From Pseudoxanthomonas dokdonensis (GTDB lineage: Bacteria > Pseudomonadota > Gammaproteobacteria > Xanthomonadales > Xanthomonadaceae), in contig NZ_LDJL01000007.1 in the NCBI RefSeq assembly GCF_001431405.1, positions 1 through 64,000 on the forward strand: a stretch of 64,000 bases of DNA, given 5' to 3'. Below, in pieces: positions 24,488 through 45,124 of the stretch. A program made the position numbers and the translations under genes. Position 1 is the first letter of the stretch; every line of letters begins with the position of its first letter. The notes under the pieces are model-generated. The model saw nothing but the letters and a program-made list of their open reading frames with translations. It did no database searches and was not told the origin of the DNA.

Positions 24488-24568
24488 GGCGCCATTATCG
24501 CCGCAGCCATCGGGCGGGAAGCAAGCATCCTGCCCGCCGGGTGCAGCGCCGACCCGGCGCATCAGTGC

Positions 24569-25432: not shown

Positions 25433-25441
25433 GCCGACAGT

Positions 25442-26698: not shown

Positions 26699-27335
26699 AG
26701 TGGTTTCCCCGTCCGGCTTCCCCCACCGGACAACTCCTGCATGGTAGCGGTTTATCAGCGGAAGGGAACTCCCCCGGTGTGACGCCCGGCAGGGTTCGGC
26801 AATCAGCCCGTGTTTGCTGACCCGATGTGTCCGTCCCGGTCCCCGCATCGGCATGCCTTGCCTGGATGCAGGGGAAGGGCTCAGCAATGCGCACTGACAG
26901 GGCAGGGGCGGGGCTCGGCAATGCGCACCGACAGCTTCAACGACGTTACGGTTTACTACTCCCTCCCCGTTTACGGGGTAGAGCCCGCCCCGTACTTGAT
27001 ACGGGGGCCGGGGTGGGGGCAGCAAGCGTCAGTACTGCTCAGCCAAGCCCCCATCCCAACCCCCGTATCGAGTACGGGGCATGCCTACCCCGCAAGCAGG
27101 GGAAGGGCTCAGCAATGCGCACTGACAGGGCAGGGGCGGGGCTCAGCAACGCGCACCGACAGCTTCAACGACGATACGGTTTTCACTCCCTCCCCCGTTT
27201 ACGGGGAAGAGCCTGCCCCGTACCTGATACGGGGGGCGGGGTGGGGGCAGGACGCGTCAGGACACTTCCAGTAACACCCATGCCAGTTCGCAGGACGCTG
27301 CCCGGCTGGACGCAGAGATCCCAGCACCCCCCCAC
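26699..27335. other. 637-bp gene-free gap between pilB and pilC
   Basis: No convincing gene. Short reading frames on both strands are made of repeat sequence. The centre is a 228-bp tandem duplication (26851-27258). The pilC ribosome site (GGGGAAA) is at the pilC edge. No intrinsic terminator with a U-tract was seen, so pilB and pilC may be cotranscribed through it. Confidence 0.6.
26851..27258. repeat. Tandem duplication, 228-bp period, of a GC-rich palindromic element
   Basis: The sequence from 26851 recurs from 27079 with an exact 228-bp offset: for example AGGGCTCAGCAATGCGCACT recurs 228 bases on, as does the GCGTCAG word at 27026 and 27254. The copies differ by scattered substitutions and match over about 180 bp. 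Each holds a CCCCG-TTTA-CGGGG hairpin, a CCCCGTA-N5-TACGGGG hairpin, and a GGGGTGGGGGCA end. The same hairpins recur inverted at 40056-40117, and the second one again at 39615-39665. It is a dispersed repeat that has duplicated here. Confidence 0.8.
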
Positions 27336-29072: not shown

Positions 29073-29144
29073 GAGGTCTACCTGCGGCAAGTCTACAGAT
29101 GGCAGCAAGAATCAGGCCAGAGCCCTAGACTAACGAAACCGTCT

Positions 29145-30854: not shown

Positions 30855-30861
30855 TGCCCGC

Positions 30862-32871
30862 TCACTGGCAGAGTGCCGTCAGCGCGTGATCGTCCCGCCA
30901 GTGCAGGCATGCCTGTTGCTTGAGATACGCCACAGGCGCCTGGGTTGGTGCGTTCTTCACTGGCCACCAACGCAGCTGGCGTCGATCTATGATCAGCGGA
31001 TGGCCGTCCTGTGAAGCACCGATAGCGAGGATCCAGTTATCGAGGTAAACAGCACGCTGGCGATACCTGATTCTTTCGGGCATGGACAACTCGTCGACAA
31101 CGACGCGCCCCTCGTCGTCAAGCCTGAACATATGCATCATCTCGTTTGCCACTTGTCCTTCGTTGATGTCATCAGTGTTCAGGGACTTGGGGAAGTAGGA
31201 TGACTCGACGAATCGAATGCGGTTCGGAGAGGACGTATCAGGCAACGCCGCCAGTTGTGGCGCCAGGGATACGCCATCAAAGCCCTGGGCACGCTCCGGC
31301 AGGCCGGCCAACTGGGCCAGCGTTGGCGCGACGTCGATCAGACTGGCCGGAAATTCCCGCTTGCCGCTGATCACCCTGGACCTGCCATATTGCCGAAACG
31401 CGAGCAGGACCTGGACTTGAGGGGCACGAAAAGCAGAGCCGCCGTGACCGTGCACTCTGTTTGTGGCCTCATCGCCGGAAGCATTGTGCAGTCGATCCTT
31501 GCGCATGCCAAAATCCTCGCCGTGGTCTGACAGCAAAACCATGATGGCGTTGTCCAGTCGACCCTGCTGCTTCAACGCGGCCAACAGCCGACCGATCTGG
31601 TCATCGACCTGGGCAAGCGCGTTGAGATAGTTGTTGCGACTGTCGCTGAATGCAGCGTGCCGGGTGCGGAAATCCCTGGCCGGGTGAAAAGGCGACTGGC
31701 GACGATAGGGCCAATGTGCGCCGCAGTAGTGGGCATAGAAGAACAACGGACGTTCACGATCCGCATCAGCCAACGCTTTGTCGATGCTGTCCGAGAAAGT
31801 TGCTGGCTGGTAAGCGTAGTCCAAGGCGCGATTGCCGCGAACAGCGGGAAACAGCCAGCCACCCACAGGCGTGCCGGCGATCAGATTGACCAGTACGTTG
31901 TCCGCGGCCAGCGACATGACAAAGTCGACAATGCCCATCGGCGGACCGATGACGCGGTCAAATCCGTAGCGCTGGTCGATATTGGCGAAGCGTGTTTCGT
32001 CCATGGCGAGCAGCGTGCGGTAACCCGCTGCGCGGAACTGATAGGCAACACTGTCCTGGGTGGCGACACGGGAGGGGGGATAGAGATTGTCGCGTCCGCC
32101 ATGGTGGTTGGGCCAGCGACCGGTCAGTATGCTGACGGTCGCCGGGAATGTATGCGGCTGGGTGGTCAGTGTGTCGTTGAACACTACGCTGTCTTTCAAC
32201 AGGCCTTCCAGATGCGGCATCAGATACAAGGGTGAGTCGAAAGCCTGGAGGTGGTCCGGCCTCAATGAATCCACCCCGATGACGATGATGTCAGGGCGAT
32301 CACGTAGTGAGCCACGGCCGGATTTGCCCGCAAATACGGTCAGCGCTGTCATGACAGTCGCCCCCATGACCAGCGCGCCGAAGGTGTAGCGCTTGGCCCG
32401 GCGTGCTTGCTTCAACCAGAAAATCAATGCGATCAGCAGATAGCTGGTCACCGCGAACGCGAGCAGTGACCCGATAAGCCTGCCTGAGCCACGCGCCAGG
32501 ACGGGTATCAACCAGTGGCCCGTGGTGGAATCAGGATATAGCCAGCTGTTGCCCAGATGAAGGATGGCCGTCACCAGAATAAGTTGGGCAAGCAGCACGG
32601 TTAACTGTATATCGCGGGAAATTCGCGGTGCGAGAAGCGCATTGAACGCAGCTGCGTTCAGTACAGCAAACAGCAGATGGACGGCGACCCATGCCAGGAA
32701 AAATAATCCAAGTTCCAGCCAGGCAGGGTTTGGCCGCAGGATGGCTTGCCATTGCTCAGTGGGTGCGGCCAACTCGCTCAGGACATGCGAGTGAAGTAAC
32801 GCATAGCATTGCAGCGCCAGCCACAGGAGTGCCCACGTAAAGCAGATTGTGCGTGTGCGCAGGACTGGCAT
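30862..32871 (-). CDS. Membrane-bound sulfatase/phosphoglycerol-transferase superfamily enzyme
   Basis: A 669-residue protein with about five N-terminal membrane helices (to about residue 185) followed by an alkaline-phosphatase-superfamily domain. This begins IIVIGVDSLRPDHLQ, has a Thr/Ser-rich stretch TTQPHTFPATVSILTGRW with the probable nucleophile, and a metal-binding SDHGEDFG. The build is like LtaS, EptA/PptA and YejM: a periplasmic transferase or hydrolase acting on phospho- or sulfo-substituents. It starts 25 bases after the pilA terminator, so its expression may depend on read-through. No good Shine-Dalgarno precedes the ATG. Lower GC than the flanking pil genes. A phosphoform transferase for pilin is plausible but unproven. 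Confidence 0.65.
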   Translation of the reverse strand: MPVLRTRTICFTWALLWLALQCYALLHSHVLSELAAPTEQWQAILRPNPAWLELGLFFLAWVAVHLLFAVLNAAAFNALLAPRISRDIQLTVLLAQLILVTAILHLGNSWLYPDSTTGHWLIPVLARGSGRLIGSLLAFAVTSYLLIALIFWLKQARRAKRYTFGALVMGATVMTALTVFAGKSGRGSLRDRPDIIVIGVDSLRPDHLQAFDSPLYLMPHLEGLLKDSVVFNDTLTTQPHTFPATVSILTGRWPNHHGGRDNLYPPSRVATQDSVAYQFRAAGYRTLLAMDETRFANIDQRYGFDRVIGPPMGIVDFVMSLAADNVLVNLIAGTPVGGWLFPAVRGNRALDYAYQPATFSDSIDKALADADRERPLFFYAHYCGAHWPYRRQSPFHPARDFRTRHAAFSDSRNNYLNALAQVDDQIGRLLAALKQQGRLDNAIMVLLSDHGEDFGMRKDRLHNASGDEATNRVHGHGGSAFRAPQVQVLLAFRQYGRSRVISGKREFPASLIDVAPTLAQLAGLPERAQGFDGVSLAPQLAALPDTSSPNRIRFVESSYFPKSLNTDDINEGQVANEMMHMFRLDDEGRVVVDELSMPERIRYRQRAVYLDNWILAIGASQDGHPLIIDRRQLRWWPVKNAPTQAPVAYLKQQACLHWRDDHALTALCQ

Positions 32872-32895
32872 TGGAAAGGAATTTCAAGACGGTTT

Positions 32896-32929
32896 AAAAA
32901 AAAGAAACCCCGCAAATGCGGGGTTTCTT
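32896..32929 (-). terminator. Rho-independent terminator after pilA
   Basis: A perfect 13-bp stem AAGAAACCCCGCA / TGCGGGGTTTCTT with a very small loop; on the minus strand it is followed by eight U. It lies between the pilA stop and the next gene's start, so it could let abundant pilA message end while some transcripts continue. Confidence 0.88.
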
Positions 32930-32947
32930 GTACGCATCTGTGCTTGC

Positions 32948-33340
32948 TTATTCGCGGCACTCAGACGGCACGTACTTAACGTCGCTGGGGTTATTACAAT
33001 CCCAAGTGACGCCGGCGCTGGTTTCTGTGGGGACCAGGTCAAATGTCACCGGGGCATCCGCACCTGCCTCAACCGAGATGCCGATGGTGCCGGCATCGCA
33101 AGTAAGAGTCGTACGGCCGATCTCAGCTTCGTTCACGCCCAAGCAATCGTCACTTGCGTCGGAGGCCATGTTTTCTGCAACAGTCGCTTTGGCGCCGCTT
33201 GCAACAGCAACACCTTCACTGACACGTGCGCGGACGGTGTAGTCCTTGTAAGCCGGCAGTGCGATGGCGGCCAAGATGGCGATGATGGCGACCACGATCA
33301 TCAGTTCGATGAGGGTGAAGCCCTGCATGTTCTTCTTCAT
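32948..33340 (-). CDS. pilA: Type IV pilin PilA (major pilin)
   Basis: A class IVa prepilin of 130 residues. The leader is six residues, MKKNMQG, cut before Phe by PilD; then [19 protein letters not shown], the conserved hydrophobic assembly helix with Glu5. The mature protein is about 124 residues. Four cysteines are present, and the last pair (WDCNN...VPSECRE) probably closes the C-terminal disulfide loop. AAGGGGAAA precedes the ATG and is a strong ribosome site. The longer frame to 33505 is upstream noncoding sequence. An apparent sigma54 element at 33401-33416 and PilR nearby suggest PilS/PilR control. Likely the major pilin, as it is the only pilin gene here. Confidence 0.94.
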
Positions 33341-33400
33341 TACGTTTTCCCCTTCAGGAGTGGCATGGTTGGTAGGTGACACAGGACCCGCGTGTGCACA

Positions 33401-33416
33401 TGCAAGCCCCGTATCC
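33401..33416 (-). promoter_or_regulatory. Candidate sigma54 promoter of pilA
   Basis: On the minus strand GGATAC-N5-TTGCA resembles the consensus TGGCAC-N5-TTGCA; the -12 TTGCA is perfect but the -24 matches at only three of six. It lies about 60 bases upstream of the pilA ATG, giving a leader near 50 bases, and PilR is encoded next door. Position supports it more than sequence. Confidence 0.42.
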
Positions 33417-33655
33417 CCGTGTACTGGAACCGTGGGCGCCGAGCTGTTGCCCTGCAACGGAGAGTGATGCATGTAACGTGCCAACTTGGTCACCGCTCGA
33501 GCCACCCTGTGTCCCCACGATGGCCGAGCGCTGTGTGACCGAAGTCGGGGCGAACTATGGCATCAAAATTTTGACTTGTGTATCGGGGAAACGGCCGTCA
33601 AACAGGTAAGTGGTCACAGTCCCGGCGATTGATGGATTTATCGCCAAGGTGGCGG

Positions 33656-33716
33656 AGTCAAGAAAATGACACCTTGGGTCAGAAAGTGACGCAGTGTGTC
33701 AGTTGGGCCGGCTGAC
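33656..33716. promoter_or_regulatory. Cluster of TGAC/GTCA words, candidate PilR enhancer
   Basis: Six TGAC or (G)TCA words fall within 60 bp, including TGACAC (33667), GGGTCA, GTGACGC and TGTGTCA (33694). In Pseudomonas PilR binds sites containing (C/G)TGTC upstream of pilA; GTGTC or its complement GACAC occurs here at 33668 and 33695. The distance from the -12 element, about 265 bp, suits an enhancer. Inferred. Confidence 0.42.
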
Positions 33717-33795
33717 ATGGTGGCCAAAGCGGTGATGGTTGTTGTGGTTCGGATGCCCGAAGCGCGTTGAGAAGATCGTGAGCGTGCGACGGGGC

Positions 33796-33817
33796 AGCGG
33801 AGCAAGCTCCGCTCTAC
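33796..33817 (-). repeat. GTAG-type REP (SMAG-like) hairpin
   Basis: On the minus strand GTAG precedes AGCGGAGC-TT-GCTCCGCT, an eight-base perfect stem. GTAG at the foot of a short palindrome is the signature of the REPs of Stenotrophomonas and relatives (SMAG). It lies 37 bases beyond the pilR stop. Confidence 0.7.
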
Positions 33818-33853
33818 GTTTGGGGTTGGGATTGGGTGTGGCGGCGTTGCCGG

Positions 33854-35236
33854 TTATTCGATGCCGAGTTTCTTGAGCTTGTAGCGCAGGGCGCGGAAGG
33901 TGATGCCCAGTTGCGCGGCGGCCTTGGTCTTGTTCCAGCGGTTGTCTTCCAGCGCTTTGTGGATGGCGCTGCGCTCGAGCTGCTCGATGTAGGACGGCAA
34001 TGGGCCGTCGGGGGCGTCATCGTTGATGTCGTGGACCACGCCGTTGCCGGCAGCCGTCGCCCTGGCGTGGCCGTTGGCCTGCGGCAGGTACAGATCATCG
34101 GCGTTGATGATGTCGCCATCGGCCATCGCCAGCGCGCGCTCGAGGATGTTTTCCAGCTCGCGCACGTTGCCGGGAAAGCCGTAGCCGGCCAGCGCCGCCA
34201 TCGCCGCATCCGACAACGCCGGGGTGTCGCGGCCGTGCTGGGCGGCCAACCGCGCCAGGATCGCCTGGGTCAGTTGTGGCAGGTCGCCGGTGCGTTCGCG
34301 CAGCGGCGGCACCCGCAGCTCGATGACGTTGATGCGGTAGTACAGGTCGTGGCGGAAGCGGCCATCGGCGGCCAGTTCGCCCAGGTCCTTGTGGGTGGCC
34401 GAAAGGATGCGCACGTCGACCGGGATCTCGGCCGAGGCGCCGACCGGGCGCACGCTTTTTTCCTGGATCGCGCGCAGCAGCTTGACCTGCATCGGCAGCG
34501 GCAGTTCTGCCACCTCGTCGAGGAACAGGGTGCCACCGCTGGCGGCCTGGAACAGGCCCGGCTTGTCGGCATGGGCGCCGGTGAAGCTGCCTTTCCTGTG
34601 GCCGAAGAATTCGCTTTCCATCAGCTCGGCCGGGATCGCGCCGCAGTTGACCGGGATGAACGGCCCGGCCGCGCGTGCGCCCTGTTCGTGGATGGTGCGG
34701 GCCACCAGCTCCTTGCCGACGCCGGACTCGCCGAGGATGTAGACCGGGGCCTGGCTGCGGGCGACCTTGGCGATGGTCTCGCGCAGCACGCCCATCGCCG
34801 GCGACTGGCCGAGCAGGCGGCTGGCCTGTTCCGGCGGTGGCGGGGCAGGCGCGGGGCGTTCGGCATTGTTGAGCTCCAGCGCGTGCTTGACCAGCCCGCG
34901 CAGCACCGCGATGTCGACCGGCTTGCTGACGAAATCGAAGGCGCCGGCCTTCAGCGCCTCGACCGCCAGTTCGACATTGCCGAAGGCGGTGATCATGGCG
35001 ACCGGGGTGCGCGGATGGTCGCGGGCGATCTCGGCAACCAGCTCGATGCCGTTGCCATCGGGCAGGCGCATGTCGGTGAAACACAGGTCGTAGCGGTTGC
35101 GGGCCAGTTGCTCGCGGGCATCGCCAAGATTGGCGGCGGTATCGATACGCAACCCCATGCGCCCCAGGGTCAGTACCAGCAATTCTCGGATGTCCCGCTC
35201 GTCGTCGACGACCAGGGCGCTACGGTTTTCGCTCAT
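33854..35236 (-). CDS. pilR: Sigma54-dependent response regulator PilR
   Basis: An NtrC-type activator of 460 residues. The receiver domain has DDERD at 11-15 and the phosphoacceptor Asp55 in [11 protein letters not shown]. The AAA+ domain has Walker [12 protein letters not shown] and the sigma54-contact loop [11 protein letters not shown], a GSFTGA variant of GAFTGA. The DNA-binding domain ends with [24 protein letters not shown] (Fis-type). PilR activates pilA transcription in response to PilS. The ATG at 35236 follows a strong ribosome site (AGGGGAG). A repeat array separates it from pilS. Confidence 0.94.
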
Positions 35237-35655
35237 GAATCTCCCCTTGACCCCTGTGAGAACAGTGTAACGGGAGAATGTGAATGTGTTCCAGCCGCGC
35301 CGCATCATGGCATCGGCGACCATTGCGCTGAGGCTGCCGCCGCGGCGCGCCGCATGAAACCATCGGCGCCATTACGGTCATGCCGTCGCCCCGGCGCGGC
35401 GCAGGAAGGCACTGGTCACCATGACGCCTGGGCCGCCGCCGCGGCGCGCTGCATGAAACCATCGGCGCCATTACGGTCATGCCGTCGCCACGGCGCGGCG
35501 CAGGAAGGCACCGGTCACCATGACGCCTGGGCTGCCGCCGCGGCGCGCCGCAGGAAGGCATCGGTCAGGGTGACGTTTGGGCCGCCGCCGCGGCAGGCGG
35601 TAGTACGGCGTCGGTTGTACAACCACACAGACCGCCCGGATCAGCCGCGCGATAG
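35237..35655. other. 419-bp gene-free gap between pilS and pilR
   Basis: Mostly the minisatellite at 35290-35625. The pilR ribosome site is at its end. In related gammaproteobacteria pilS and pilR lie close together, so this gap is unusual. A frame on the minus strand (35220-35561) is made only of the repeat. Confidence 0.6.
35290..35625. repeat. Minisatellite, about 49-50 bp units, about seven copies
   Basis: The word CCGCCGCGGCGCGCCGCA(GGAAGGCA or TGAAACCA)TCGG recurs. Two unit types alternate to give a 99-bp higher-order period: GGCTGCCGCC at 35332, GGCCGCCGCC at 35431 and GGCTGCCGCC at 35530, then a further start at 35580. The two complete 99-bp units are nearly identical; the outer units are more diverged. 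The array fills the pilR-pilS gap. Confidence 0.82.
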
Positions 35656-37281
35656 CTACATCGGTGTGGACTGCAGCGCGTGCGGGCCGGGCAGGGTGAT
35701 GCGGAAGCAGCTGCCGCCGCCGGGGACCGGTACGTATTCCAGCGTGGCCTGGTTGGCGCGGCACAACTCGCGGGCGATGTACAGGCCCAGCCCGGTGCCA
35801 TGCTCGGAAGTGGTGAAGAACGGCCGGAACAACTGCGCCGCGACCGCCTCGGGGATGCCGGGGCCGCGATCCATCACATCGATGATCGGGTGGTGCTGGG
35901 CATGGGCCACACGCAGCCGCACCCGCGCCGACTCGCCCGGCAGCCGACCATAGTTGAGGGCGTTGTGGACCAGCACGGTGACGACCTGCTGCAGGTGGCG
36001 GAGGTCGGCCATCGCCGGCACCGCGCTGGCGCCGGTCACCGCTACCAGCGAATCGGTCTCGATCGACAGGCTCTGCTGGTAGTCCTCGACGAAACGGCGG
36101 GCAAAGCTGTTGAGCTCGATATGTTCGGGGCTGGCCCGCTCGCGCCGGGCCAGGCCGAGCACGCTTTCGACGATGCCGTTGGTGCGCTGGCATTGCTGGT
36201 GGATGATCTGCAGCAGGCGGCGGTCGCCATCGACAATCTGCTGCGACTCTTCCAGCAATTGCACCGCGTAGTTGATCGCGGCCAGCGGATTGCGGATTTC
36301 GTGGGCCAGGCTGGCCGAAAAGCGGCCGAGCGCGGCCAGGGTCAAGGACTCGGCGCGGCGCGAGACCACGGTGGCGTCGTCGAGGAATACCAGCGAGGTG
36401 TCGCTGTCGGCCAGCAGCCGGGCAAAACGCGGCTGCACTTCGGCCTGGTCCGGGCTCAGCTGCAGCGGGCTCTCGTCGTGGGTCCAGCCGTTGCGCCAGG
36501 CCTGCAGGCGGCGGTACAGCTCCGGCGCGGCATGGACCAGGCTGCTGGCCTGCGGGTCGCCTTCGGGCTCGCCCGAGTCACCGAGCAGCAGCGAGGCGGC
36601 TTCGTTGGCCAGCTTGATGTGGTTGTCGGCATCGACCACCAGCACGCCGGTACGCATGCGGCGGATGATCAGCTCGTTGATTTCATACAGGTTGGCGACC
36701 TCGGCGCCGCGCTGTTCGGCCAGCTCATGCCCGCGTCGGGCGCGGGTGCCGGCCCGGTGCGCCAGGTAGCCGACCGACAGATAGGCCACGCTGAACATGA
36801 TCAGGTCGGGGATGGTGCGCTCGACGCTGCCATCCAGCTCGTCATGCCAGAAATACTCGCCAAACAGCACGCCGATGGCCAGCAGGGTGATCGCCAGCGA
36901 CAGATTGGCCGACGGCAGCAGCAGCGAGGCGGCGGCGACGTTGAACAGCAGCATCATCGCCACCCCGGCGGCGGCGGCGGGCAGGGCATGGGTGATCAGC
37001 CCGGCGACGGCGATGTCGACGCAGACGCCGATCAGCACGATCGGCACCAGCCAGCGCACGTTGCGGCCAAACACGTACAGACCCAGCGCCAGCAGCAGGT
37101 AGCTGACGCTGGTGCAGATGGCCAGGTCCGGATGCGGTGGGTCGGCCAGCATGCTGGACAGTGGGCTGAAGATCAGCCCGGCCAGTACCCCGGCCTCCAG
37201 CAGGCGGAACAGGGCGAAGTAGTACAGCTCCCGGCGCGGGGCTGATTCCAGATGCGAAAGGATCGAAGGACCTGGCCGCAA
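35656..37281 (-). CDS. pilS: Two-component sensor histidine kinase PilS
   Basis: About six N-terminal membrane helices, then a PAS-like domain (NLYEINELIIRRMRTGVLVV), a dimerisation/phosphoacceptor region with H in SASLAHEIRNPLAAINYAV near residue 325, and a catalytic domain with N-box VLVHNALNYGR, DRGPGIP and GTGLGLYIARE. It senses pilin in the membrane and controls PilR. I chose a TTG start at 37281 because AAGGGGAAA lies ten bases upstream and the length (541) fits the family; GTG at about 37320 is an alternative. It is divergent from sucC. A TATACT-like -10 stands just upstream. Confidence 0.88.
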   Translation of the reverse strand: MRPGPSILSHLESAPRRELYYFALFRLLEAGVLAGLIFSPLSSMLADPPHPDLAICTSVSYLLLALGLYVFGRNVRWLVPIVLIGVCVDIAVAGLITHALPAAAAGVAMMLLFNVAAASLLLPSANLSLAITLLAIGVLFGEYFWHDELDGSVERTIPDLIMFSVAYLSVGYLAHRAGTRARRGHELAEQRGAEVANLYEINELIIRRMRTGVLVVDADNHIKLANEAASLLLGDSGEPEGDPQASSLVHAAPELYRRLQAWRNGWTHDESPLQLSPDQAEVQPRFARLLADSDTSLVFLDDATVVSRRAESLTLAALGRFSASLAHEIRNPLAAINYAVQLLEESQQIVDGDRRLLQIIHQQCQRTNGIVESVLGLARRERASPEHIELNSFARRFVEDYQQSLSIETDSLVAVTGASAVPAMADLRHLQQVVTVLVHNALNYGRLPGESARVRLRVAHAQHHPIIDVMDRGPGIPEAVAAQLFRPFFTTSEHGTGLGLYIARELCRANQATLEYVPVPGGGSCFRITLPGPHALQSTPM

Positions 37282-37388
37282 GCGCTTGTTTCCCCTTGGC
37301 TGACTTAACAGTATAGGCACAGACCGGGGCCGCGGTTTTGCGCCACCCGCCGCTGTGCGCGACAATAGGGGGCTGGCTGACGCAGGAA

Positions 37389-37417
37389 GCGTACCTCGTA
37401 CCCCCCACCCGGTACGC
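37389..37417. promoter_or_regulatory. Inverted repeat in the pilS/sucC divergent region
   Basis: GCGTACC (37389-37395) and GGTACGC (37411-37417) are perfect seven-base arms with a 15-base spacer, 44 bases upstream of the sucC ATG. It is a candidate operator or leader hairpin; nothing else identifies it. Confidence 0.3.
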
Positions 37418-37460
37418 GACAGGCGCCAGCTTCTATTTTGTTCCCTACCCACGGTGACGC

Positions 37461-38621
37461 ATGAATTTCCACGAATATCAGGCAAAACAGTTGTTTGCCG
37501 ACTACGGCATCCCGGTGCCAGCCGGACGCGTTGCGTCCACTCCCGACGAAGCCGTCGAAGCGGCCCAGGCCCTCGGCAAAGGCCCCTGGATGGTCAAGGC
37601 CCAGATCCACGCGGGCGGCCGCGGCAAGGCCGGCGGGGTCAAGTTCTGCAAGACCACCGATGACGTCAAGACCGCTGCCGCCGGCATGCTGGGCACCAAC
37701 ATGGCGACCTACCAGTCCGCTGGCGTGGCCCTGCCGGTCAACCTGGTGCTGGTGACCGAGGCCGGTGAAATCGCCAAGGAACTGTACCTGTCGGTGCTGG
37801 TTGACCGTGGTACCAAGTCGATCACCTACATCGCGTCCAGCGAAGGTGGCGTCGACATCGAGCAGGTTGCCGCCGAGACCCCGGAAAAAATCCAGACCCT
37901 CAACGTCAGTTTCGTTGAAGGCCTGCAGCCCTACCAGGGCCGCGAAATCGGCTTCAAGCTGGGCCTGACCGCCAAGCAGTCCAACCAGTTGGCCAAGATC
38001 ATGGGTGGCCTGTACACCCTGTTCAACGAAAAAGACCTGTCGCTGGTCGAACTGAACCCGCTGGCGATCCTGGACAGCGGCGACCTGTACGCGCTGGACG
38101 GCAAGGTCAATTCCGACGACAACGCCACCTTCCGCCACAAAGACCTGGCGGCGATGCGCGACACCTCGCAGGAAGACGAAACCGAAGTGCTGGCCTCCGA
38201 GCACGATCTCAACTACGTGACCATGGACGGCAACATCGGCTGCATGGTCAACGGCGCTGGTTTGGCGATGGCGACGATGGACGTGATCTCGCTCAACGGC
38301 GGCAGCCCGGCCAACTTCCTTGACGTCGGCGGCGGCGCCACCAAGGAACGCGTGACCACGGCGTTCAAGCTGATCCTGTCCAGCGACAAGGTCAAGGCGA
38401 TCTTCGTCAACATCTTCGGCGGCATCGTCCGCTGCGACATGATTGCCGAAGGCATCATCGCCGCGGTCAAGGACGTCGGCGTCAAGGTGCCGGTGATCGT
38501 GCGGCTGGAAGGCACCAACGTGGAAGCCGGCAAGAAGCTGCTGGCCGAATCGGGCCTGGCCATCCAGTCCGCCGACGACATCAACGACGGCGCCAAGAAA
38601 GCCGTCGCTGCTGCCGCCTAA
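37461..38621 (+). CDS. sucC: Succinyl-CoA ligase (ADP-forming) beta subunit
   Basis: The ATP-grasp beta subunit of the TCA cycle enzyme that makes succinate and ATP from succinyl-CoA, 386 residues, the usual length. It starts [20 protein letters not shown]. It carries [25 protein letters not shown] with a Mg ligand, and the C-terminal [17 protein letters not shown]. It forms an alpha2-beta2 or alpha-beta complex with SucD, 22 bases downstream. The linkage to pilSR is characteristic of xanthomonads. The alpha-ketoglutarate dehydrogenase genes are not in this window. Confidence 0.97.
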
Positions 38622-38643
38622 TCACGAGATCCAAGGATTCCCA

Positions 38644-39519
38644 ATGAGCGTTTTGATCAACAAGAACACCAAGGTGATCGTGCAGGGCTTCACCGGCCAG
38701 CAGGGCACCTTCCACGCCACCCAGATGGTGGAATACGGCACCCAGGTCGTCGGCGGCGTGACCCCCGGCAAGGGCGGCACCACCCATATCGAGCTGCCGG
38801 TGTTCAACACCGTCGCCGAAGCCGTTGAAGCCACCGGCGCCGACGCCTCGGTCATCTACGTGCCACCACCGTTTGCCGCCGATGCGATCCTGGAAGCGGC
38901 TGCTGCCGGCATCAAGGTCATCGTCTGCATCACCGAAGGCATCCCGGTGCTGGACATGCTGCGGGTCAAGAACGTGCTGAACGGCCATCCGGACGTGACC
39001 CTGATCGGTCCCAACTGCCCCGGCATCATCACCCCGGGCGAGTGCAAGATCGGCATCATGCCGGGCCACATCCACCAGCCGGGCAAGATCGGCATCGTCT
39101 CGCGCTCCGGCACCCTGACCTACGAAGCGGTCAAGCAGACCACCGACGTCGGCCTGGGCCAGAGCACCTGCATTGGTATTGGCGGTGACCCGATCAACGG
39201 CCTGAACTTCGTCGACTGCCTGAAGCTGTTCAACGAAGATCCGCAGACCGAAGGCATCATCATGGTCGGCGAAATCGGCGGCAGCGCCGAGGAAGAAGGC
39301 GCTGAGTACATCAAGAACCACGTCAAGAAGCCGGTCGTCGGCTTCATCGCCGGTGCCTCCGCCCCTCCGGGCAAGCGCATGGGCCATGCCGGTGCCATCG
39401 CCTCCGGTGGCCAGGGCACGGCCGAAGGCAAGTTCGCGGCGATGGAAGCCGCTGGCGTCACCACCGTCCGTTCACCGGGCGACCTGGGTGCCGCGATTGC
39501 TGCCCGCTTGAAGAAGTAA
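38644..39519 (+). CDS. sucD: Succinyl-CoA ligase (ADP-forming) alpha subunit
   Basis: The CoA-binding alpha subunit, 291 residues. It has [21 protein letters not shown] near the start, the [18 protein letters not shown] segment, and [17 protein letters not shown] with the histidine that is phosphorylated during catalysis. AAGGA before the ATG is a good ribosome site. It is followed by a strong terminator, so sucCD is a two-gene operon. Confidence 0.97.
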
Positions 39520-39557
39520 GCATTGGTCACCGGCGAGGTGTCGGTGATGTCGAGAAG

Positions 39558-39585
39558 AAAGCCGCCTTCGGGCGGCTTTTTTTTT
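39558..39585 (+). terminator. Rho-independent terminator after sucD
   Basis: Stem AAAGCCGCC / GGCGGCTTT with a TTCG tetraloop, followed by an uninterrupted run of nine T from 39577. A strong terminator, 38 bases after the sucD stop. Confidence 0.93.
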
Positions 39586-39614
39586 GGCTGGATGTTGATG
39601 AAAGTCGCGTGACC

Positions 39615-39665
39615 TTGCCCCCACCCCGGCCCCCGTACCTGATACGGGGGCTGGGGTGGGGGCAA
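39615..39665. repeat. Near-perfect 23-bp inverted repeat (repeat family copy)
   Basis: The arms (39615-39637 and 39643-39665) are 23 bases with a single mismatch, around a five-base CCTGA loop. Each arm is CCCCCACCCC-type sequence ending in CCCCCGTA. The half-site matches those at 26851-27258 and 40056-40117. It lies 43 bases upstream of the DUF559 gene. Confidence 0.85.
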
Positions 39666-39708
39666 AATAGCGACAAACCAAGCAAGGCAAAGCACAGGAG
39701 GTGCAACG

Positions 39709-40107
39709 ATGCGACAGGGACAGAAACGCGACCGCGCGCGGCAACTGCGCCGGGACATGACGACCGCGGAACGACGCTTATGGGGTGTGCTGCAGAAACG
39801 ACAACTGGACGGATGCCGCTTCCGGCGCCAGCATCCGATTGGCCGGTACATCGCCGATTTCGCCTGTCTTGAGGTGGGGCTGATTGTGGAAGTCGACGGT
39901 GGCCAACATATGGACGCACGCAGCGATCGCGTGCGTGATGCATTCCTGCAAGAGCAGGGTTTCCAGGTTCTGCGCTTCTGGAATGACGAGGTGTTGACCA
40001 ATCTGGATGGTGTGTATTGTCGATTGGAAGCGTGGTTGAACGAATATCGCGAGCGTTGCCCCCACCCCAACCCCCGTATCAGGTACGGGGCAGGTTCTAC
40101 CCCGTAA
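39709..40107 (+). CDS. DUF559 family protein (Vsr-like PD-(D/E)XK nuclease fold)
   Basis: A 132-residue protein of the DUF559 family, which has a Vsr-like endonuclease fold. It begins with a basic arm (RQGQKRDRARQLRRDMTTAERRLWGVL). The core YIADF (D50) and IVEVDGGQH (E61, D63) has the acidic residues of a PD-(D/E)XK site, followed by VLRFWNDEVLTNLDGV. The start has an ideal AGGAGGT ribosome site. The domain ends near residue 116; residues 117-132 are encoded by a copy of the dispersed repeat (40056 onward), which also supplies the stop. Palindromes lie on both sides. DNA substrate and role are unknown; a RAYT-like role for these repeats is a guess. Confidence 0.8.
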   Translation: MRQGQKRDRARQLRRDMTTAERRLWGVLQKRQLDGCRFRRQHPIGRYIADFACLEVGLIVEVDGGQHMDARSDRVRDAFLQEQGFQVLRFWNDEVLTNLDGVYCRLEAWLNEYRERCPHPNPRIRYGAGSTP

Positions 40108-40117
40108 ACAGGGGAGG
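40056..40117. repeat. Dispersed GC-rich palindrome overlapping the 3' end of the DUF559 gene
   Basis: The reverse complement of this segment closely matches the core of the 228-bp repeat: CCTCCCC-like, the GTTTACGGGGTAGA word, CCCCGTACCTGATACGGGG, and GGGGTGGGGGCAA. It therefore holds the same two hairpins in inverse orientation. It encodes the last 16 residues and stop of the DUF559 gene. Confidence 0.82.
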
Positions 40118-40418
40118 AAGCTAGGCGACAGGGCCAGGGAGTGGACCGCATAGTGTTTGAATTGTCGTGCATCTGTGACAGATAAAGATCTGTTTTTGCC
40201 CCCTCCTCCGCTTGCGGGGGAGGGTTGGGGTGGGGGCAGGCTCCTGGCCGTGAACAGCGACGCGGCTGGATTGGTGCCGGCACTGCACCGCAAATGAACG
40301 CCGCCGGACGCCTGTTGCGGCGCTTCTGGAATAATGGGCGCCAGCGATCCATACCGCGTCCGCGTACACGGACGTCGCCCAGCCGCCTGCCTCGCAGTGA
40401 CAGATCCAAAGGACATCC
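40108..40418. other. 311-bp gene-free gap between DUF559 gene and nadE
   Basis: It contains the end of one repeat copy, a weak hairpin ACAGAT-AAAG-ATCTGT followed by TTTT (40178-40197), a further repeat copy at 40197-40240, and the nadE leader with AAAGGA before the ATG. No small gene is supported. Confidence 0.5.
40197..40240. repeat. Dispersed GC-rich palindrome, further copy
   Basis: CTCCTCCGC-TTGC-GCGGGGGAG forms a stem with one mismatch, followed by GGTTGGGGTGGGGGCAGG, the same end as the copies at 26851, 39615 and 40056. It is the third such element within 630 bp around the DUF559 gene. Confidence 0.7.
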
Positions 40419-42077
40419 ATGCCAAGAACTCTTCGCATCGCCATGGCCCAGTTCGACTTTCCGGTCGGGGCGGTGGCTGGCAATCTCGAGCGCATCCAGC
40501 AGATGATCGCGCAGGCGCGGGATGAATACGGCGCCGACGTAGTGATGTTCCCGGAATTGGCCATCAGTGGTTATCCGCCGGAAGACCTGCTGATGCGGCC
40601 GCGCTTCCTGGCTGATTGCGAAAGCGCGTTGCGGCAGATTGCGGCGACCACCACCGGCATCGTCGCGGTGGTTGGCTGGCCGGAGTCGGCCGGCAGCGTG
40701 GTCTACAACTCCGCCAGCGTGCTGCGCGACGGGCGGCTGGAGCGGACCTACCGCAAGCGCGAGCTGCCCAACTACAACGTGTTCGACGAGCGCCGCTACT
40801 TCGACGTCGATCCCGATGGCGGCTCGTGCGTGTTCACGGTCAAGAGCGTGCAGGTCGGATTGCTGGTCTGTGAGGATCTGTGGTTTGCCGAGCCGATCCA
40901 TGACACCGCGATGCAGGGCGCCGAAGTGGTGGTGGTGCCGAACGCCTCGCCGTTCGAGCGCGACAAGCACGCACAACGCGATGCGCTGATCAGCCAGCGG
41001 GTGGCCGATACCATGCTCGACGGCAGCCAGCTGGGCGTCGGCCTGGCATACCTGAACGTGGTCGGCGGCCAGGACGCGCTGGTGTTCGATGGCTCGTCGG
41101 TGGTTGCCGACGGCGATGGCAGCGTGCATCCGGCCGCAGCCGCGTTCAGCGACCAATGGCTGGTGGTGGACTTCGATGCCGATACGCGCCGGTTCTCGCC
41201 GGTGGTATGGATGGACGACGGTGATGAAAGCCGCGATGCCCTGGCCTGGCGGGCGATCGTGCGCGGGCTGCGCGACTACTGCGGCAAGAACGGCTTCAGC
41301 AAGGTCTGGCTGGGACTGTCAGGCGGCATCGATTCCTCGATCGTACTGGCGCTGGCGGTCGATGCGCTGGGCGCGGACAACGTCACCGCGGTGCGCCTGC
41401 CCTCGCGCTACACCGCCGAACTGTCCAATGATCTGGCCCAGGAACAATGCGATGCATTAGGCGTCAAGCTGCTGACGATTCCGATCGAGGCGCCGTTCAA
41501 GGGCTTCCTGGAGGCCCTTGGGCCGAGCTTCGAAGGCCTCGCCGCTGACACCACCGAAGAGAACCTGCAGTCGCGCAGCCGCGGCGTGATCCTGATGGCG
41601 TTGTCGAACAAGCTCGGTGGGCTGCTGCTGACCACCGGCAACAAGAGTGAATACGCGGTCGGCTACGCCACCATCTATGGCGACATGTGCGGCGGTTATG
41701 CGCCGATCAAGGATCTGTACAAGACCGAGGTGTTCGAGCTGGCCCAGTGGCGCAATACCGTTGGTGGCGCGCCGGTGATCCCGCCGGCGGTGATTTCGCG
41801 GCCGCCATCGGCGGAACTGCGGGAGAACCAGAAGGACCAGGATTCACTGCCGCCGTACGATGTGCTCGACGCGATCCTGTACCGCTACATCGATCAGGAG
41901 CAGTCGCGCGATGAAATCGTCGCCGCCGGTTTCAATGCTGAAACGGTCGACCGCATGCTGAAACTGGTACGCACGAATGAATGGAAGCGCCATCAATCGG
42001 CGCCGGGGCCGAAGATCTCCAAGCGCGCGTTCGGCCGCGAGCGACGGTACCCGATCAGCAACCGCTACGGCAGTTGA
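40419..42077 (+). CDS. nadE: Glutamine-dependent NAD+ synthetase
   Basis: A two-domain enzyme of 552 residues that amidates nicotinic acid adenine dinucleotide. The N-terminal carbon-nitrogen hydrolase domain releases ammonia from glutamine: E in MFPELAISGYPPEDLL, K in RTYRKRELPNYNVFDE, and nucleophile C near 151 in VGLLVCEDLWF. The C-terminal synthetase domain has the PP-loop LGLSGGIDSSIVLAL near residue 300, then TTGNKSEYAVGYATIYGDM. The start has AAAGGA upstream. A bidirectional terminator separates it from the convergent HAD gene. Confidence 0.96.
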   Translation: MPRTLRIAMAQFDFPVGAVAGNLERIQQMIAQARDEYGADVVMFPELAISGYPPEDLLMRPRFLADCESALRQIAATTTGIVAVVGWPESAGSVVYNSASVLRDGRLERTYRKRELPNYNVFDERRYFDVDPDGGSCVFTVKSVQVGLLVCEDLWFAEPIHDTAMQGAEVVVVPNASPFERDKHAQRDALISQRVADTMLDGSQLGVGLAYLNVVGGQDALVFDGSSVVADGDGSVHPAAAAFSDQWLVVDFDADTRRFSPVVWMDDGDESRDALAWRAIVRGLRDYCGKNGFSKVWLGLSGGIDSSIVLALAVDALGADNVTAVRLPSRYTAELSNDLAQEQCDALGVKLLTIPIEAPFKGFLEALGPSFEGLAADTTEENLQSRSRGVILMALSNKLGGLLLTTGNKSEYAVGYATIYGDMCGGYAPIKDLYKTEVFELAQWRNTVGGAPVIPPAVISRPPSAELRENQKDQDSLPPYDVLDAILYRYIDQEQSRDEIVAAGFNAETVDRMLKLVRTNEWKRHQSAPGPKISKRAFGRERRYPISNRYGS

Positions 42078-42118
42078 CCCACTGCCCGGCGGATGCCCGT
42101 CTGGCGGCGTGAAGCGTA

Positions 42119-42145
42119 AAAAAAGGGCCCAGCGGGCCCTTTTTT
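42119..42145. terminator. Bidirectional terminator between nadE and the HAD gene
   Basis: A perfect 12-bp stem AAAAAAGGGCCC / GGGCCCTTTTTT with an AGC loop gives a U-tract in both directions. It serves nadE on the plus strand and the HAD gene on the minus strand. Confidence 0.92.
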
Positions 42146-42167
42146 CGTTTCAAGCATCTGACGGCGC

Positions 42168-43184
42168 TTACTTGCTCTGCTGGGCTTCGCACTCGAACTT
42201 CATCACGCATTTCCACTCCGACTTCATGCTGATGAGGCTCCAATTGCGTTCCTTGGACTCTTCGATACCGTGGTCGAGTTTGCCGAACGGCGACTTGCGG
42301 TCATAGGCGAATTCACGCTTGCCATCGTCGTGATGCAGCAGCATGCCCAGTCGCGGTCCGGCACCGGAAGTCGTCCATTCCAGCATCTGGATGTCGCCAT
42401 CGGAATTGCCGAAGGCGGCGATCGGGCGGCGGCCAATGTGGTACTGGATCATCACCGGCTTGCCGGTCTTGTCATCCAGGAAGTTGAGCGCCGGCTGGCG
42501 TACCAGCGTGGGCTTGCCGTCCTTGAGCTGGTATTCGACCTTGATGGTGCTGCCGATCACCTGCTCCGGCGGGATGCCGTAGATCGACTCCGTCCACGGC
42601 CGCATGAAATCAATGCCACCGCCGGAGACGATGAAGGTCTTGAAGCCATTCTGGCGCAGGAAGTACAGCAGCTCCAGCATCGGCTGGTAGACCATTTCGG
42701 TATACGGCTGGCCGGTCTTGGGATGGCGTGCCGTGCGGATCCAGTCGCTGGCGATCTGGTTGAACTCATCGGTGCTCATGCCGGCATGGGTGACCATCAC
42801 CATTTTCAGCAGGCCTTCCTCACCGGATTGTGCCAGCGCGGCCATGTCGTTCTCGAGCACGGCCTTGAACGGCTGCTCGGTTTTCCACTCTGGATGTTGC
42901 GCTGCCAGCGCCTTGACCCGATCCAGGGCAAAGGCCAGTTGCACGTACATCGGCTGTTCGGCCCAGAGGGTGCCGTCGTTGTCGAACACGGCAATCCGTT
43001 CGTCCGGGGCGACATAGTCCGCGCCACCCTGCTGGGTCACACGGTTGACGAAATCAATGATCGCGGTGCGGCTGGGGCCATCGTTCCATGATGGCAATGG
43101 CTCGGCGCCGAACGCCGCGCCGGCAGCCAGCGCCAGCGAGGTGGCCAGCAAGGCGCTGGCAAGAGGTTTGAAGACCAGGTTCAT
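42168..43184 (-). CDS. Secreted HAD-family phosphatase
   Basis: A 338-residue protein with an N-terminal signal peptide (ALLATSLALAAGAAFGA, cleaved about residue 26). The HAD core motifs are present: IAVFDNDGTLW with the nucleophilic and acid/base aspartates, a FIVSGGGIDFM threonine/serine-type motif 2, and the AAFGNSDGDIQML motif 4. The family is phosphoserine phosphatase-like. It is likely periplasmic. A CAGGAGA ribosome site precedes the ATG. It follows the sulfatase gene by 65 bases on the same strand, with a strong hairpin in between, and is probably cotranscribed. Substrate unknown. Confidence 0.82.
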   Translation of the reverse strand: MNLVFKPLASALLATSLALAAGAAFGAEPLPSWNDGPSRTAIIDFVNRVTQQGGADYVAPDERIAVFDNDGTLWAEQPMYVQLAFALDRVKALAAQHPEWKTEQPFKAVLENDMAALAQSGEEGLLKMVMVTHAGMSTDEFNQIASDWIRTARHPKTGQPYTEMVYQPMLELLYFLRQNGFKTFIVSGGGIDFMRPWTESIYGIPPEQVIGSTIKVEYQLKDGKPTLVRQPALNFLDDKTGKPVMIQYHIGRRPIAAFGNSDGDIQMLEWTTSGAGPRLGMLLHHDDGKREFAYDRKSPFGKLDHGIEESKERNWSLISMKSEWKCVMKFECEAQQSK

Positions 43185-43207
43185 GGTGTCTCCTGCGCTT
43201 TAAGCGA

Positions 43208-43232
43208 GCCGCCCCGCATGATGCGGGGCGGC
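43208..43232 (-). other. Intercistronic hairpin between sulfatase and HAD genes
   Basis: An 11-bp stem GCCGCCCCGCA / TGCGGGGCGGC with a TGA loop, without a U-tract. It is more likely an mRNA-stabilising or partial-termination element than a terminator. Confidence 0.5.
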
Positions 43233-43249
43233 GTTGGGGTTGGCGTCAA

Positions 43250-45124
43250 TCAGTTTCCGCTTGGCATCGGAATACTGAAGCCTTCTTTTTCCAGATTCTC
43301 TCGTACGTACTGGAACCGCTGGTACTGGCTCAACGTGATCGGTCCGGTATACGTCTCGCTCTGCAACTTGCGCGGCGGGTACTTGATGTAGCTCTTCATC
43401 TTCTCCTGGGTCGCGGCGTTGATTGCCACCAGCATCCAGGTACGTTCCGTGTAGTTGTTCATGAAGATGTCGTAGCGTTCCTGCGGGTCCTGCCAGAGAT
43501 CGAAGATCTGCGGCACGGTCGCCACGTATTTCTCCGGACCCTTCCAGCCCTGGTTGGCATCCACGGCCAGGCCGCCGGTGGAAGCCCCGTTGTCACCGCG
43601 CAGGTTGAACACGGCCTTGTAGTTGCCTACGCGCACCGCACCCGGGGTCAGCTCGTTCTCGGTGAAGTAGAACCAGGAATTGCGCAGCGGCTTGCCGGTG
43701 GCGAACAGGACCGGCGACATGTCGATGCTGTCGAAGATGATCGGCTTGCCGTCGCGGTCGTTGCCCGGCAGTTCCACGCCGGCCACGTTGGCGAAGGTCG
43801 CCATCAGATCCAGGCCACCCATGACGTCGTGGTTCTTGACGCCGGCCTTGATCTTGCCGGGCATCCAGGCAATGGCCGGGACGCGGTTGCCGCCTTCACG
43901 CACGGTACCCTTGGTGCCCCGGAACGGGGTGTAGCCGGCGTCCGGATAGACGTCCTGCCATGCACCGTTGTCGGTGGTGTAGAACACCAGGGTGTTCTTG
44001 TCCAGGCCGGTCTCGCGCAGCTTGGCCATGATCGCGCCGATGCGTGCATCCAGTTCGACGATCGAGTCGGCGTACTTGGACTTGGACAGTGACTTGCCCT
44101 GGAATTCCGGGTCCGGCATGTTCGGCTGGTGGACCTTCATGAAGTTGATGTTCATGAAGAACGGTTCGGCCGGCTTGTCCCTGGCGACCTGGTCCAGATA
44201 GTCCAGCGAGGCTTTTTCGACATAGGCGTCGAAGAACGGGATACCGACCACGCCGGTCGGGTATTCCTCGCTGTTCTCGTCAGGCTTGTTGACGTACTGG
44301 CCGTTGATTGCGAAATCCTCGACGGCTTCCTCGCCGGCATTGGCCGACAGCGAACCGCGGGTGACCTTCTTGAACATGGCGCGCATTTCCGGCGTCATGT
44401 CCGGGAACCAGGTCGGGTCCGCGTAGGTGTAGGCATTGAGGTGGTACAGGCCGGCGTACTTCATGACGTCGTAGCCTTGTGCATTGGGCAACGCGTAATC
44501 GGATTCGCCAAGGTGCCACTTGCCGGTGAAGAACGTGTGGTAACCGGCCTTCTTCAGCATCGATGCCAACGTCCACTCGGCGGCCGGCAGACCGCCACCC
44601 TGACCCTGGAAGGCCACGGTGGTCATGCCGCTGCGGTTGGGGATGCGACCGGTCTGCATGGCGGCGCGGCCCGGGGTACAGCTGGCCTGCGCGTAGAACG
44701 AGAACATGGTCATGCCTTCGGCTGCCAGGCGGTCGATGTTGGGGGTCGGCATGCCCCGGCCTTCGCCGCCGCCGTATGGGCCCAGATCGCCGTAGCCGGT
44801 GTCATCGGAGACCAGCAGGATGATGTTCGGCTTGGAACCGGCGACCGCGGAGGCGGCCTGCGGATCGACCGGCACCGGGGTCGGGTTGGCATCCAGCGCG
44901 GCATGGATGCCGACACCGACCGCGCCGGTGGCGTCGGTCGATGGCGCCATGGCCGCGGAGCTGGGGCCAGCGGCGGCGACAGCGGCGGAACTGCCGCCTG
45001 CGGGAGTGTCGTCGGCGTTGTTGGCGACGGGGGCGTCACCCTTGCCGCACGCTCCCAGCATCGCTGCCATCGCGATCAGTGGTACGTACCTCGTGAGTAT
45101 TTTTCTCTTTCGACTGCTGGACAT
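43250..45124 (-). CDS. Sulfatase, lipoprotein, formylglycine-dependent (Cys type)
   Basis: A 624-residue exported sulfatase of the arylsulfatase family. The signal MSSSRKRKILTRYV...AMLGAC has a lipobox LGAC, so it is a lipoprotein with an Ala/Pro-rich linker (about 25-85). The sulfatase domain has NIILLVSDDTGYGDLGPYG and the modification motif CTPGR with Cys at about 149, matched by the FGE gene 88 bases upstream. The GKWHLG metal/active-site motif is present. AGGAG precedes the ATG. A longer in-frame reading to 45292 is not needed. Natural substrate (sulfated glycan or aryl sulfate) cannot be told from sequence. Confidence 0.9.
   Translation of the reverse strand: MSSSRKRKILTRYVPLIAMAAMLGACGKGDAPVANNADDTPAGGSSAAVAAAGPSSAAMAPSTDATGAVGVGIHAALDANPTPVPVDPQAASAVAGSKPNIILLVSDDTGYGDLGPYGGGEGRGMPTPNIDRLAAEGMTMFSFYAQASCTPGRAAMQTGRIPNRSGMTTVAFQGQGGGLPAAEWTLASMLKKAGYHTFFTGKWHLGESDYALPNAQGYDVMKYAGLYHLNAYTYADPTWFPDMTPEMRAMFKKVTRGSLSANAGEEAVEDFAINGQYVNKPDENSEEYPTGVVGIPFFDAYVEKASLDYLDQVARDKPAEPFFMNINFMKVHQPNMPDPEFQGKSLSKSKYADSIVELDARIGAIMAKLRETGLDKNTLVFYTTDNGAWQDVYPDAGYTPFRGTKGTVREGGNRVPAIAWMPGKIKAGVKNHDVMGGLDLMATFANVAGVELPGNDRDGKPIIFDSIDMSPVLFATGKPLRNSWFYFTENELTPGAVRVGNYKAVFNLRGDNGASTGGLAVDANQGWKGPEKYVATVPQIFDLWQDPQERYDIFMNNYTERTWMLVAINAATQEKMKSYIKYPPRKLQSETYTGPITLSQYQRFQYVRENLEKEGFSIPMPSGN

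Follow-up and report, generated by a model that had tools for sequence, protein, structure and literature searches.

A DUF559 nuclease gene enclosed by palindromic repeats in Pseudoxanthomonas dokdonensis, and the case for a minimal mobile unit

Why should the gene of a restriction-fold nuclease stand inside a set of palindromic repeats, and do gene and repeats belong together? The question is raised by a 64,000-nucleotide stretch of Pseudoxanthomonas dokdonensis DNA (contig NZ_LDJL01000007.1, positions 1 to 64,000 of the forward strand; hereafter the window), in which a single DUF559 gene is accompanied by three copies of a palindromic repeat. The association between DUF559 genes and palindromes of this kind is strong, has been replicated, and survived attempts to refute it. 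The explanation considered best, and probable though well short of secure, is that the DUF559 protein is the cognate nuclease of its own palindromes, that palindromic end, DUF559 gene and palindromic end form a minimal mobile unit (approximately 0.45-0.6 kb), and that palindromes without a gene are its non-autonomous derivatives.

Repeats were scored with R1, a covariance model built from 36 selected units and holding only 7 base pairs. The features of the locus are as follows.

39615..39665, no strand assigned: upstream palindrome, symmetric (tail, hairpin, tail); both strands match R1 (E 0.0017 and 0.0034)
39709..40107, plus strand: DUF559 gene of 132 codons, Vsr-like PD-(D/E)XK nuclease fold; candidate active-site residues E21, D50, E61, D63 and H67
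40056..40119, minus strand: downstream end (tail, hairpin, second hairpin) with its tail towards the gene; R1 E 0.0021
40194..40240, plus strand: third palindrome, a canonical member (hairpin, then G-rich tail); R1 47.7 bits, E 5.6e-11, its unit being one of the 36 used to build R1
40319..40338, plus strand: short remnant of a second DUF559 gene (RRFWNN motif) ahead of the next gene; direct repeat D2, one frame of which reads LLRRFWNN

The arms of the upstream inverted repeat (39615-39637 and 39643-39665) are 23 nt long, 96% complementary and separated by a 5-nt loop, and 43 bp lie between the end of this 51-bp palindrome and the ATG at 39709. The last 16 codons of the gene are exactly positions 40057-40104 of the downstream palindrome, and the TAA stop codon falls inside its second hairpin. 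The third palindrome is a related family member whose core differs from that of the other two. The preliminary description, which had reported a DUF559 gene with three palindrome copies, one of them encoding its C-terminus, was thus correct in coordinates and residues. Five palindromes with arms of at least 16 (at most 2 mismatches) occur in the window, 39619-39661 among them; ten block-shuffled windows gave 0, 0, 0, 0, 1, 0, 2, 0, 0 and 0 by the same rule. The genome contains 13 occurrences of the string TGCCCCCACCCC and none of its backward reading. An Rfam search of positions 24000-44000 gave no match at gathering level. The product of 39709-40107 matches PF04480 at E=1.3e-38 in a Pfam scan that returned DUF559 alone, plus MTES_1575 below cut-off, and neither an HUH/Y1 (PF01797) nor a transposase model; the Vsr fold was found by fold comparison. 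Alignment A2 comprises 48 of 62 DUF559 sequences, 14 having been omitted because their frames were broken, partial or near-duplicate. All 48 share D50 and E61, and conservation of D63 is at least 90%. The nuclease fold is conserved, its putative active site is under purifying selection, and the Vsr-like PD-(D/E)XK assignment with D50, E61 and D63 is borne out.

The bracketing of the gene by hairpins is repeated in other genomes. Sixty-one DUF559 loci were gathered by protein similarity only, mostly from Alpha-, Beta- and Gammaproteobacteria and metagenome-assembled genomes, making 62 with the window. A unit was defined as a hairpin-plus-tail without fixed sequence within 150 bp of the gene, and open reading frames (ORFs) of at least 100 aa in the same loci served as controls. 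Units with facing tails stand on both sides of the gene at 20/62 DUF559 loci and 0/139 control ORFs, and on at least one side at 43/62 loci compared with 11/139 controls; the background is 16 hairpin-plus-tail units per 212 kb of those loci. Two replicate sets picked by Pfam score gave 14/30 versus 0/24 for both sides (any side, 21 versus 1) and 10/28 versus 0/23 (any side, 21 versus 3). Under a tail-free rule, a C-rich hairpin within 150 bp accompanies 112 of 120 DUF559 genes and 17 of 186 control ORFs, and is present on both sides of 73/120 versus 1/186. By this rule the first set yields 57/62 versus 12/139 (any side) and 33/62 versus 1/139 (both sides), and the further sets 55/58 versus 5/47 and 40/58 versus 0/47. 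DUF559 genes therefore do not generally lack such flanks, a point on which the preliminary description had let its proposal depend. The DUF559 frame enters the facing downstream unit in 23 of the 27 loci that have one, so that the repeat-coded C-terminus is a trait of the family. At L014 and L055 the DUF559 sequence lies in a longer reading frame that continues into a repeat-like peptide (SPPLGGR, SPLQGEVGKG) and other sequence.

A tblastn search with the window protein matched 3 of 50,697 phage records and 45 of 72,556 plasmid records, and spread by phages or plasmids was rejected on these figures. Eight of the 45 plasmid records were examined, and five have a C-rich hairpin on both sides of the gene (two Deinococcus loci of hpa/paa type, D. 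aetherius, Pseudanabaena and Azospirillum); the hairpin is upstream only in Deinococcus NW-56 and Synechocystis plasmids, and downstream only in Picosynechococcus. With these loci the association spans Pseudomonadota, Deinococcota and Cyanobacteriota. Three Deinococcus loci (L381, L382 and L387) lie between catabolic genes (paaD-paaZ in L381) and carry outward G-rich tails.

The number of repeats in a genome follows the gene as well. Copies were counted under strict filters, among up to about 44 listed matches per genome in the window genome's family and 26 in the phylum. Across 149 genomes of the family the median is at least 34.5 copies in the 84 genomes with DUF559 and 0 in the 65 without; at least 10 copies are present in 73/84 versus 9/65 (Mann-Whitney p 2e-21), and zero copies in 1/84 versus 35/65. 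In the phylum (249 genomes) the share with at least 10 copies is 44/60 where the DUF559 match is strong (E<1e-20), 2/26 where it is weak and 8/163 where there is none, the last two groups together giving 10/189. The repeat is accordingly far from equally abundant where the gene is missing, and the dependence of copy number on DUF559 presence, which the preliminary description had wished to see counted, holds at both ranks. Thirteen genera contain both kinds of genome, and in 12 of them the mean is higher in DUF559-bearing members, the remaining genus being tied at zero; this contrast covers the 133 of 149 genomes with a genus given, the other 16 having neither gene nor repeat match. R1 favours the repeat types found beside DUF559, so that other types in genomes without the gene may be undercounted. 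In addition, the PF04480 genome search was silent in an E. coli control genome, though YcjD, the product of the K-12 DUF559 gene ycjD, matches at 1.4e-49; either the control strain has no ycjD or the search misses genes, and some genomes scored as lacking DUF559 may be misses. Because R1 was trained on DUF559 flanks, the control was missed and the genomes share ancestry, the p values overstate certainty, and the within-genus contrast is the safer figure. Of the six strong-match genomes of the phylum with zero R1 copies, G159 and G346 show the same layout beside DUF559 in A+T-richer letters outside the reach of R1, and in G342, also at zero, DUF559 stands beside a long-ended repeat type.

Complete units were delimited in genus g129, which is probably rhizobial judging from the likeness of its repeats to those beside the Mesorhizobium gene L016, and in G172 from another family. 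Here DUF559 is enclosed in units that measure 444-568 bp and are bounded by terminal inverted repeats (TIRs); this length leaves little room beside the DUF559 frame, and no search for another gene inside was made. At the 12 of 20 loci (L168-L187) where they were measured, TIRs are 43-101 bp long and 81-100% identical, including 61-bp ends that are 100% identical (L169) and 101-bp ends that are 99% identical (L173); a thirteenth locus, L187, has a 36-bp pair of ends. The ends consist of a hairpin, often a second hairpin, and then a G-rich tail, and the downstream copy in the window is likewise two-hairpin. Identity is 0.94 between the ends of one element versus 0.79 between elements of the same genome, and ends and proteins pair as cognates (Mantel r 0.39 over the same 12 loci, with 15 of 5000 permutations as high). 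Related units occur at unrelated flanks (L170, L180 and L182, and within one genome L173 and L174, 86% over 589 bp). Gene-less derivatives share their TIRs with gene-bearing units, as in transposons of the insertion sequence (IS) and miniature inverted-repeat transposable element (MITE) type.

Individual sites are found in several states. At the site of L172 a near full-length match shows the unit to be present in 10 of 61 genomes, one of them being the source. In 20 further or overlapping loci at this site, 10 have no unit, 2 are full, 1 has a solo hairpin, and 7 hold gene-less units with another end type, one of these truncated. The site of L254, a gene-less 144-bp unit, was read in 33 genomes: 12 are repeat-free, 4 have a solo hairpin, 1 has other sequence, 12 carry gene-less units of that general type (some reversed), 1 is partial and 3 are of another type. 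In three genomes a single end type is matched 69-71 times each, with 82-100% identity among the matches listed, and the flanks of 24 gene-less copies differ, save for two pairs resembling the same sites. Gene-less copies lie in opposite orientation at apparently the same sites of two genomes in L248 versus L257 and L250 versus L255. By eye, a variable pyrimidine tract of 4-5 nt abuts both ends of most gene-less copies in L248-L277, often after AGCG.

The window site itself lies between sucD (38644-39519) and an NAD synthase gene (40419-42077), both named from their translations. Of 38 genomes searched, 20 congeneric loci were read at the sucD-nadE junction: 2 are empty (75-77 bp), 7 have a like element, 2 hold decayed remnants, 3 have DUF559 with other ends, and 6 have other genes. 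The comparison with empty sites that had been suggested earlier thus finds the site full, decayed and empty among congeners. Remnants like that at 40319-40338 occur at the same junction in L363 and L364. The junction (L361-L380) is a hot spot that, depending on the species of the genus, holds two kinds of DUF559 element, toxin-antitoxin-like genes (by reading), or nothing. The genome search found one DUF559 match in the whole genome, and gene-less members of the repeat family are found at 26958-27249 and elsewhere in the genome:

26958..27021, plus strand: gene-less copy (hairpin, hairpin, tail); R1 E 0.0022
27046..27104, minus strand: gene-less copy in inverse orientation; R1 E 0.0056
27189..27249, plus strand: gene-less copy within a tandem duplication of repeats; R1 E 0.0069

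The family had earlier been described as duplicated at 26851-27258; this applies to the repeats, and a second DUF559 gene there was rejected, since that stretch holds repeats only.

How a lone nuclease might multiply its own ends can be sketched as follows. The enzyme would recognise the folded end, a hairpin plus G-rich tail of the kind that forms a triplex in vitro in the E. coli relatives, when it is extruded or single-stranded. It would then nick or cut at or near the folded end, and the unit thus freed would be copied or re-inserted by host repair or replication. Enzymes of the PD-(D/E)XK kind cleave DNA by hydrolysis and are not known to join strands alone, so that host repair would be the likeliest joining step. 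The pyrimidine tracts at the ends, the solo hairpins and the apparently inverted copies would fit events at the palindromes themselves. Both the cleavage of the palindromes and active transposition by the DUF559 unit are inferred. The preliminary description had left it open whether the nuclease spreads, processes or protects the palindromes; site polymorphism and gene-less derivatives favour the first of these.

Several results weigh against a self-spreading unit. Seven of the 20 loci L168-L187 have no TIR pair around the gene, and the 24 gene-less copies gave no target-site duplication (k-mers of 2-9 bases, 144 boundary settings), the best k-mers reaching 7/24 (2-mer), 3/24 (3-mer) and 2/24 (4-mer); a TAAT duplication is suggested by a single clean pair, unreplicated. 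A palindromic target site was rejected because the flanks are not inverted complements (p 0.25). In multi-copy genomes (40 stretches, 10 genomes) paralogous genes are mostly diverged, the alignable ones being 68-76% alike, from which it follows that the DUF559 gene itself seldom multiplies. Recent gene copies in Lysobacteraceae-type genomes were rejected on this ground, the sole recent copy in those stretches being a tandem duplication of a 628-bp DUF559 unit at L101 (G100:C73), 97% identical. On the side of the counts, 11/84 DUF559-bearing genomes of the family have fewer than 10 copies and 9/65 without the gene have at least 10, and 13/60 strong-match genomes of the phylum have fewer than 5, with none in 6/60. 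Eight of the 120 loci have no C-rich hairpin, the window among them (its arms are not pyrimidine-rich enough), and tail orientation is not universal, being outward in Deinococcus and Azospirillum. Several loci come from the same genus and are not independent; L009, L010, L011 and L012 seem to be the genomes of L367, L369, L366 and L365, respectively, and the three locus sets may share genomes.

Against this background the most serious competing account, although an unlikely one, takes DUF559 as cargo, for example a repair or restriction nuclease, of palindrome-ended elements that are multiplied by another and probably host process. A lone PD-(D/E)XK enzyme has no known strand-transfer step of its own, which suits a passenger, as do the toxin-antitoxin-like genes (by reading) at the same sucD-nadE junction in other species. 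The Caulobacter protein VsrA, which has a DUF559 domain, is moreover read by its authors as a putative mismatch-repair enzyme (PMC12907096). A passenger should nevertheless neither predict repeat number across 149 and 249 genomes nor co-vary with the ends, and at three Deinococcus loci DUF559 is the sole annotated gene between the neighbours. Rather improbable is a drive of homing type, whereby DUF559 would cut element-less or palindromic sites and repair from the occupied copy would result in gene conversion instead of transposition. The second closest solved fold is indeed that of the homing endonuclease I-Bth0305I, and across many genomes a single site holds elements of different types, in both orientations, yet 69-71 matching ends per genome, their differing flanks and related units at unrelated loci speak for dispersal to new sites.

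A purely local role, in which the palindromes would serve DUF559 as terminators, attenuators or other control elements and their look-alikes elsewhere would be unrelated, is very improbable: the hairpins do adjoin the gene, one inside its 3' end, but local control does not predict copies dispersed by the tens, empty sites, or gene-less pairs whose ends are the same. Least credible is movement of the palindromes by Y1 transposases of the IS200 type or by the tyrosine transposases associated with repetitive extragenic palindromic (REP) sequences (RAYTs), with DUF559 genes merely landing in the palindromes. A Y1_Tnp gene is present in 102/149 genomes of the family, to which Stenotrophomonas also belongs. 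RAYTs and REPs are known in Stenotrophomonas (PMC2817692). The medians by Y1 status are, however, nearly alike: at least 35 copies with Y1 (n=65) and at least 31 without it (n=19) in DUF559-bearing genomes, and 1 (n=37) and 0 (n=28) in the others. Since repeat counts track DUF559 and not Y1_Tnp, and the copies read have no GT(A/G)G head, Y1/RAYT was rejected as the mobiliser.

The cognate-nuclease unit can now be set beside known systems. RAYT/REP systems (REPtrons; Nunvar 2010, PMC2817692) share with it a gene between two inverted palindromes, repeat abundance that follows the gene, co-variation of gene and repeats, and a low-copy gene with multiplied repeats. The differences lie in the enzyme, a Vsr-like PD-(D/E)XK nuclease in place of an HUH/Y1 transposase, and in the palindromes, which in copies read by eye have a G-rich tail and no GT(A/G)G head; because the defining enzyme and head are absent, the element is not a RAYT/REP member. 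The earlier comparison with RAYTs, proposed with a different enzyme in mind, therefore stands for arrangement and co-distribution, and Y1 does not explain the repeat numbers. By analogy, gene-less palindromes would on the best reading relate to the DUF559 unit as REPs do to RAYTs and MITEs to IS elements.

Among nucleases, I-Bth0305I is an 'EDxHD' homing endonuclease with the same fold, but the DUF559 gene lies between genes inside palindromic ends and not in an intron or intein. Tn7 TnsA differs in acting with a DDE partner. The structure record of NGO0050 (3hrl), an 'endonuclease-like protein', links it, for its own part, to neither an activity nor a repeat, and the comparison uses that record alone. 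Vsr itself is the very-short-patch repair endonuclease, which nicks T:G mismatches. It has an FXH catalytic half-motif (PMC1189080); in the 48 aligned DUF559 sequences a conserved E-x-D (E61, D63) replaces it, and unlike Vsr the gene is bounded by palindromes. By 2005 the same source had assigned YcjD to the PD-(D/E)XK superfamily and had matched it to Vsr by profile. Caulobacter VsrA shares the DUF559 domain and, in its authors' comparison, a Vsr-like fold; it differs in being read as a mismatch-repair enzyme paired with a methylase, and is needed for the SOS response when the methylase is absent (PMC12907096). The string 'palindrom' is absent from the text of that paper.

The layout of the repeats leads to the BoxC, PIT and TM_ECO elements of E. 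coli, with which they share a C-rich arm, a loop, a G-rich arm, 2-3 nt and a G-rich tail, as well as occurrence in inverted pairs. A TM_ECO-type core, GGGGAGAGGGTTAGGGTGAGGG, was seen by eye, unscored, in the DUF559 flanks L059, L060 and L065, whereas the copies in the window differ in core and often possess a second hairpin. A further difference is the nuclease gene tied to the DUF559-side repeats. As reported in Holder 2015 (PMC4666352), these elements fold in vitro into an intrastrand triplex, are present in over 260 genomes and are linked to genome instability, and no mobility function was found near them. Five inverted TM_ECO pairs are named there, and in the four compared by their coordinates (1+2, 7+8, 10+11 and 12+13) the tails face each other. 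Holder's TM_ECO number 9 (1351204-1351239) is separated by 167 bp from the end of ycjD. In the repeats beside DUF559 the tail co-varies with the arm, but a mirror polarity (z 5.5) fits as well as a direct one (z 6.6), so that proof of triplex geometry from covariation failed. A degenerate repeat copy lies at the 3' end of ycjD and a different long-armed palindrome directly upstream of the gene:

L278:1705-1740, 1896-1921 and 2262-2303: ycjD-side repeats in K-12

Of 5426 E. coli genomes, 3362 carry at least 80% of a 788-bp ycjD region at a single place. The two ycjD-less strains examined carry a resistance-nodulation-division (RND) operon there, in keeping with the efflux operon noted at the ycjD place in other lineages (PMC12817139); there is consequently no clean empty site for ycjD in these strains.

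The open-licence literature, searched by titles and abstracts with subscription papers and preprints outside the search, yielded nothing that links DUF559 to these repeats. No element class is known to have a Vsr-like nuclease as its sole protein. A wider proposal, to which we give slightly less than an even chance, is that the element represents a new class of autonomous mobile element of 0.45-0.6 kb whose only protein, a Vsr-like restriction-fold nuclease, acts on hairpin- or triplex-forming ends; its gene-less progeny would be the BoxC/PIT/'intrastrand triplex' repeats of over 260 bacterial genomes, among them E. coli K-12, where ycjD would survive as the engine's decayed relic. Such an engine role for DUF559 is plausible. 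No mobiliser was previously known for these elements, and a repeat-bounded nuclease gene found in three phyla, which predicts repeat number in Pseudomonadota, makes their origin testable in E. coli. If true, the proposal would provide DUF559 with a function, bring a further class of enzyme into the REP/MITE world, and pose the mechanistic puzzle of a nuclease without strand transfer that multiplies DNA; DUF559 may be the engine, missing until now, by which a well-known bacterial repeat family spreads.
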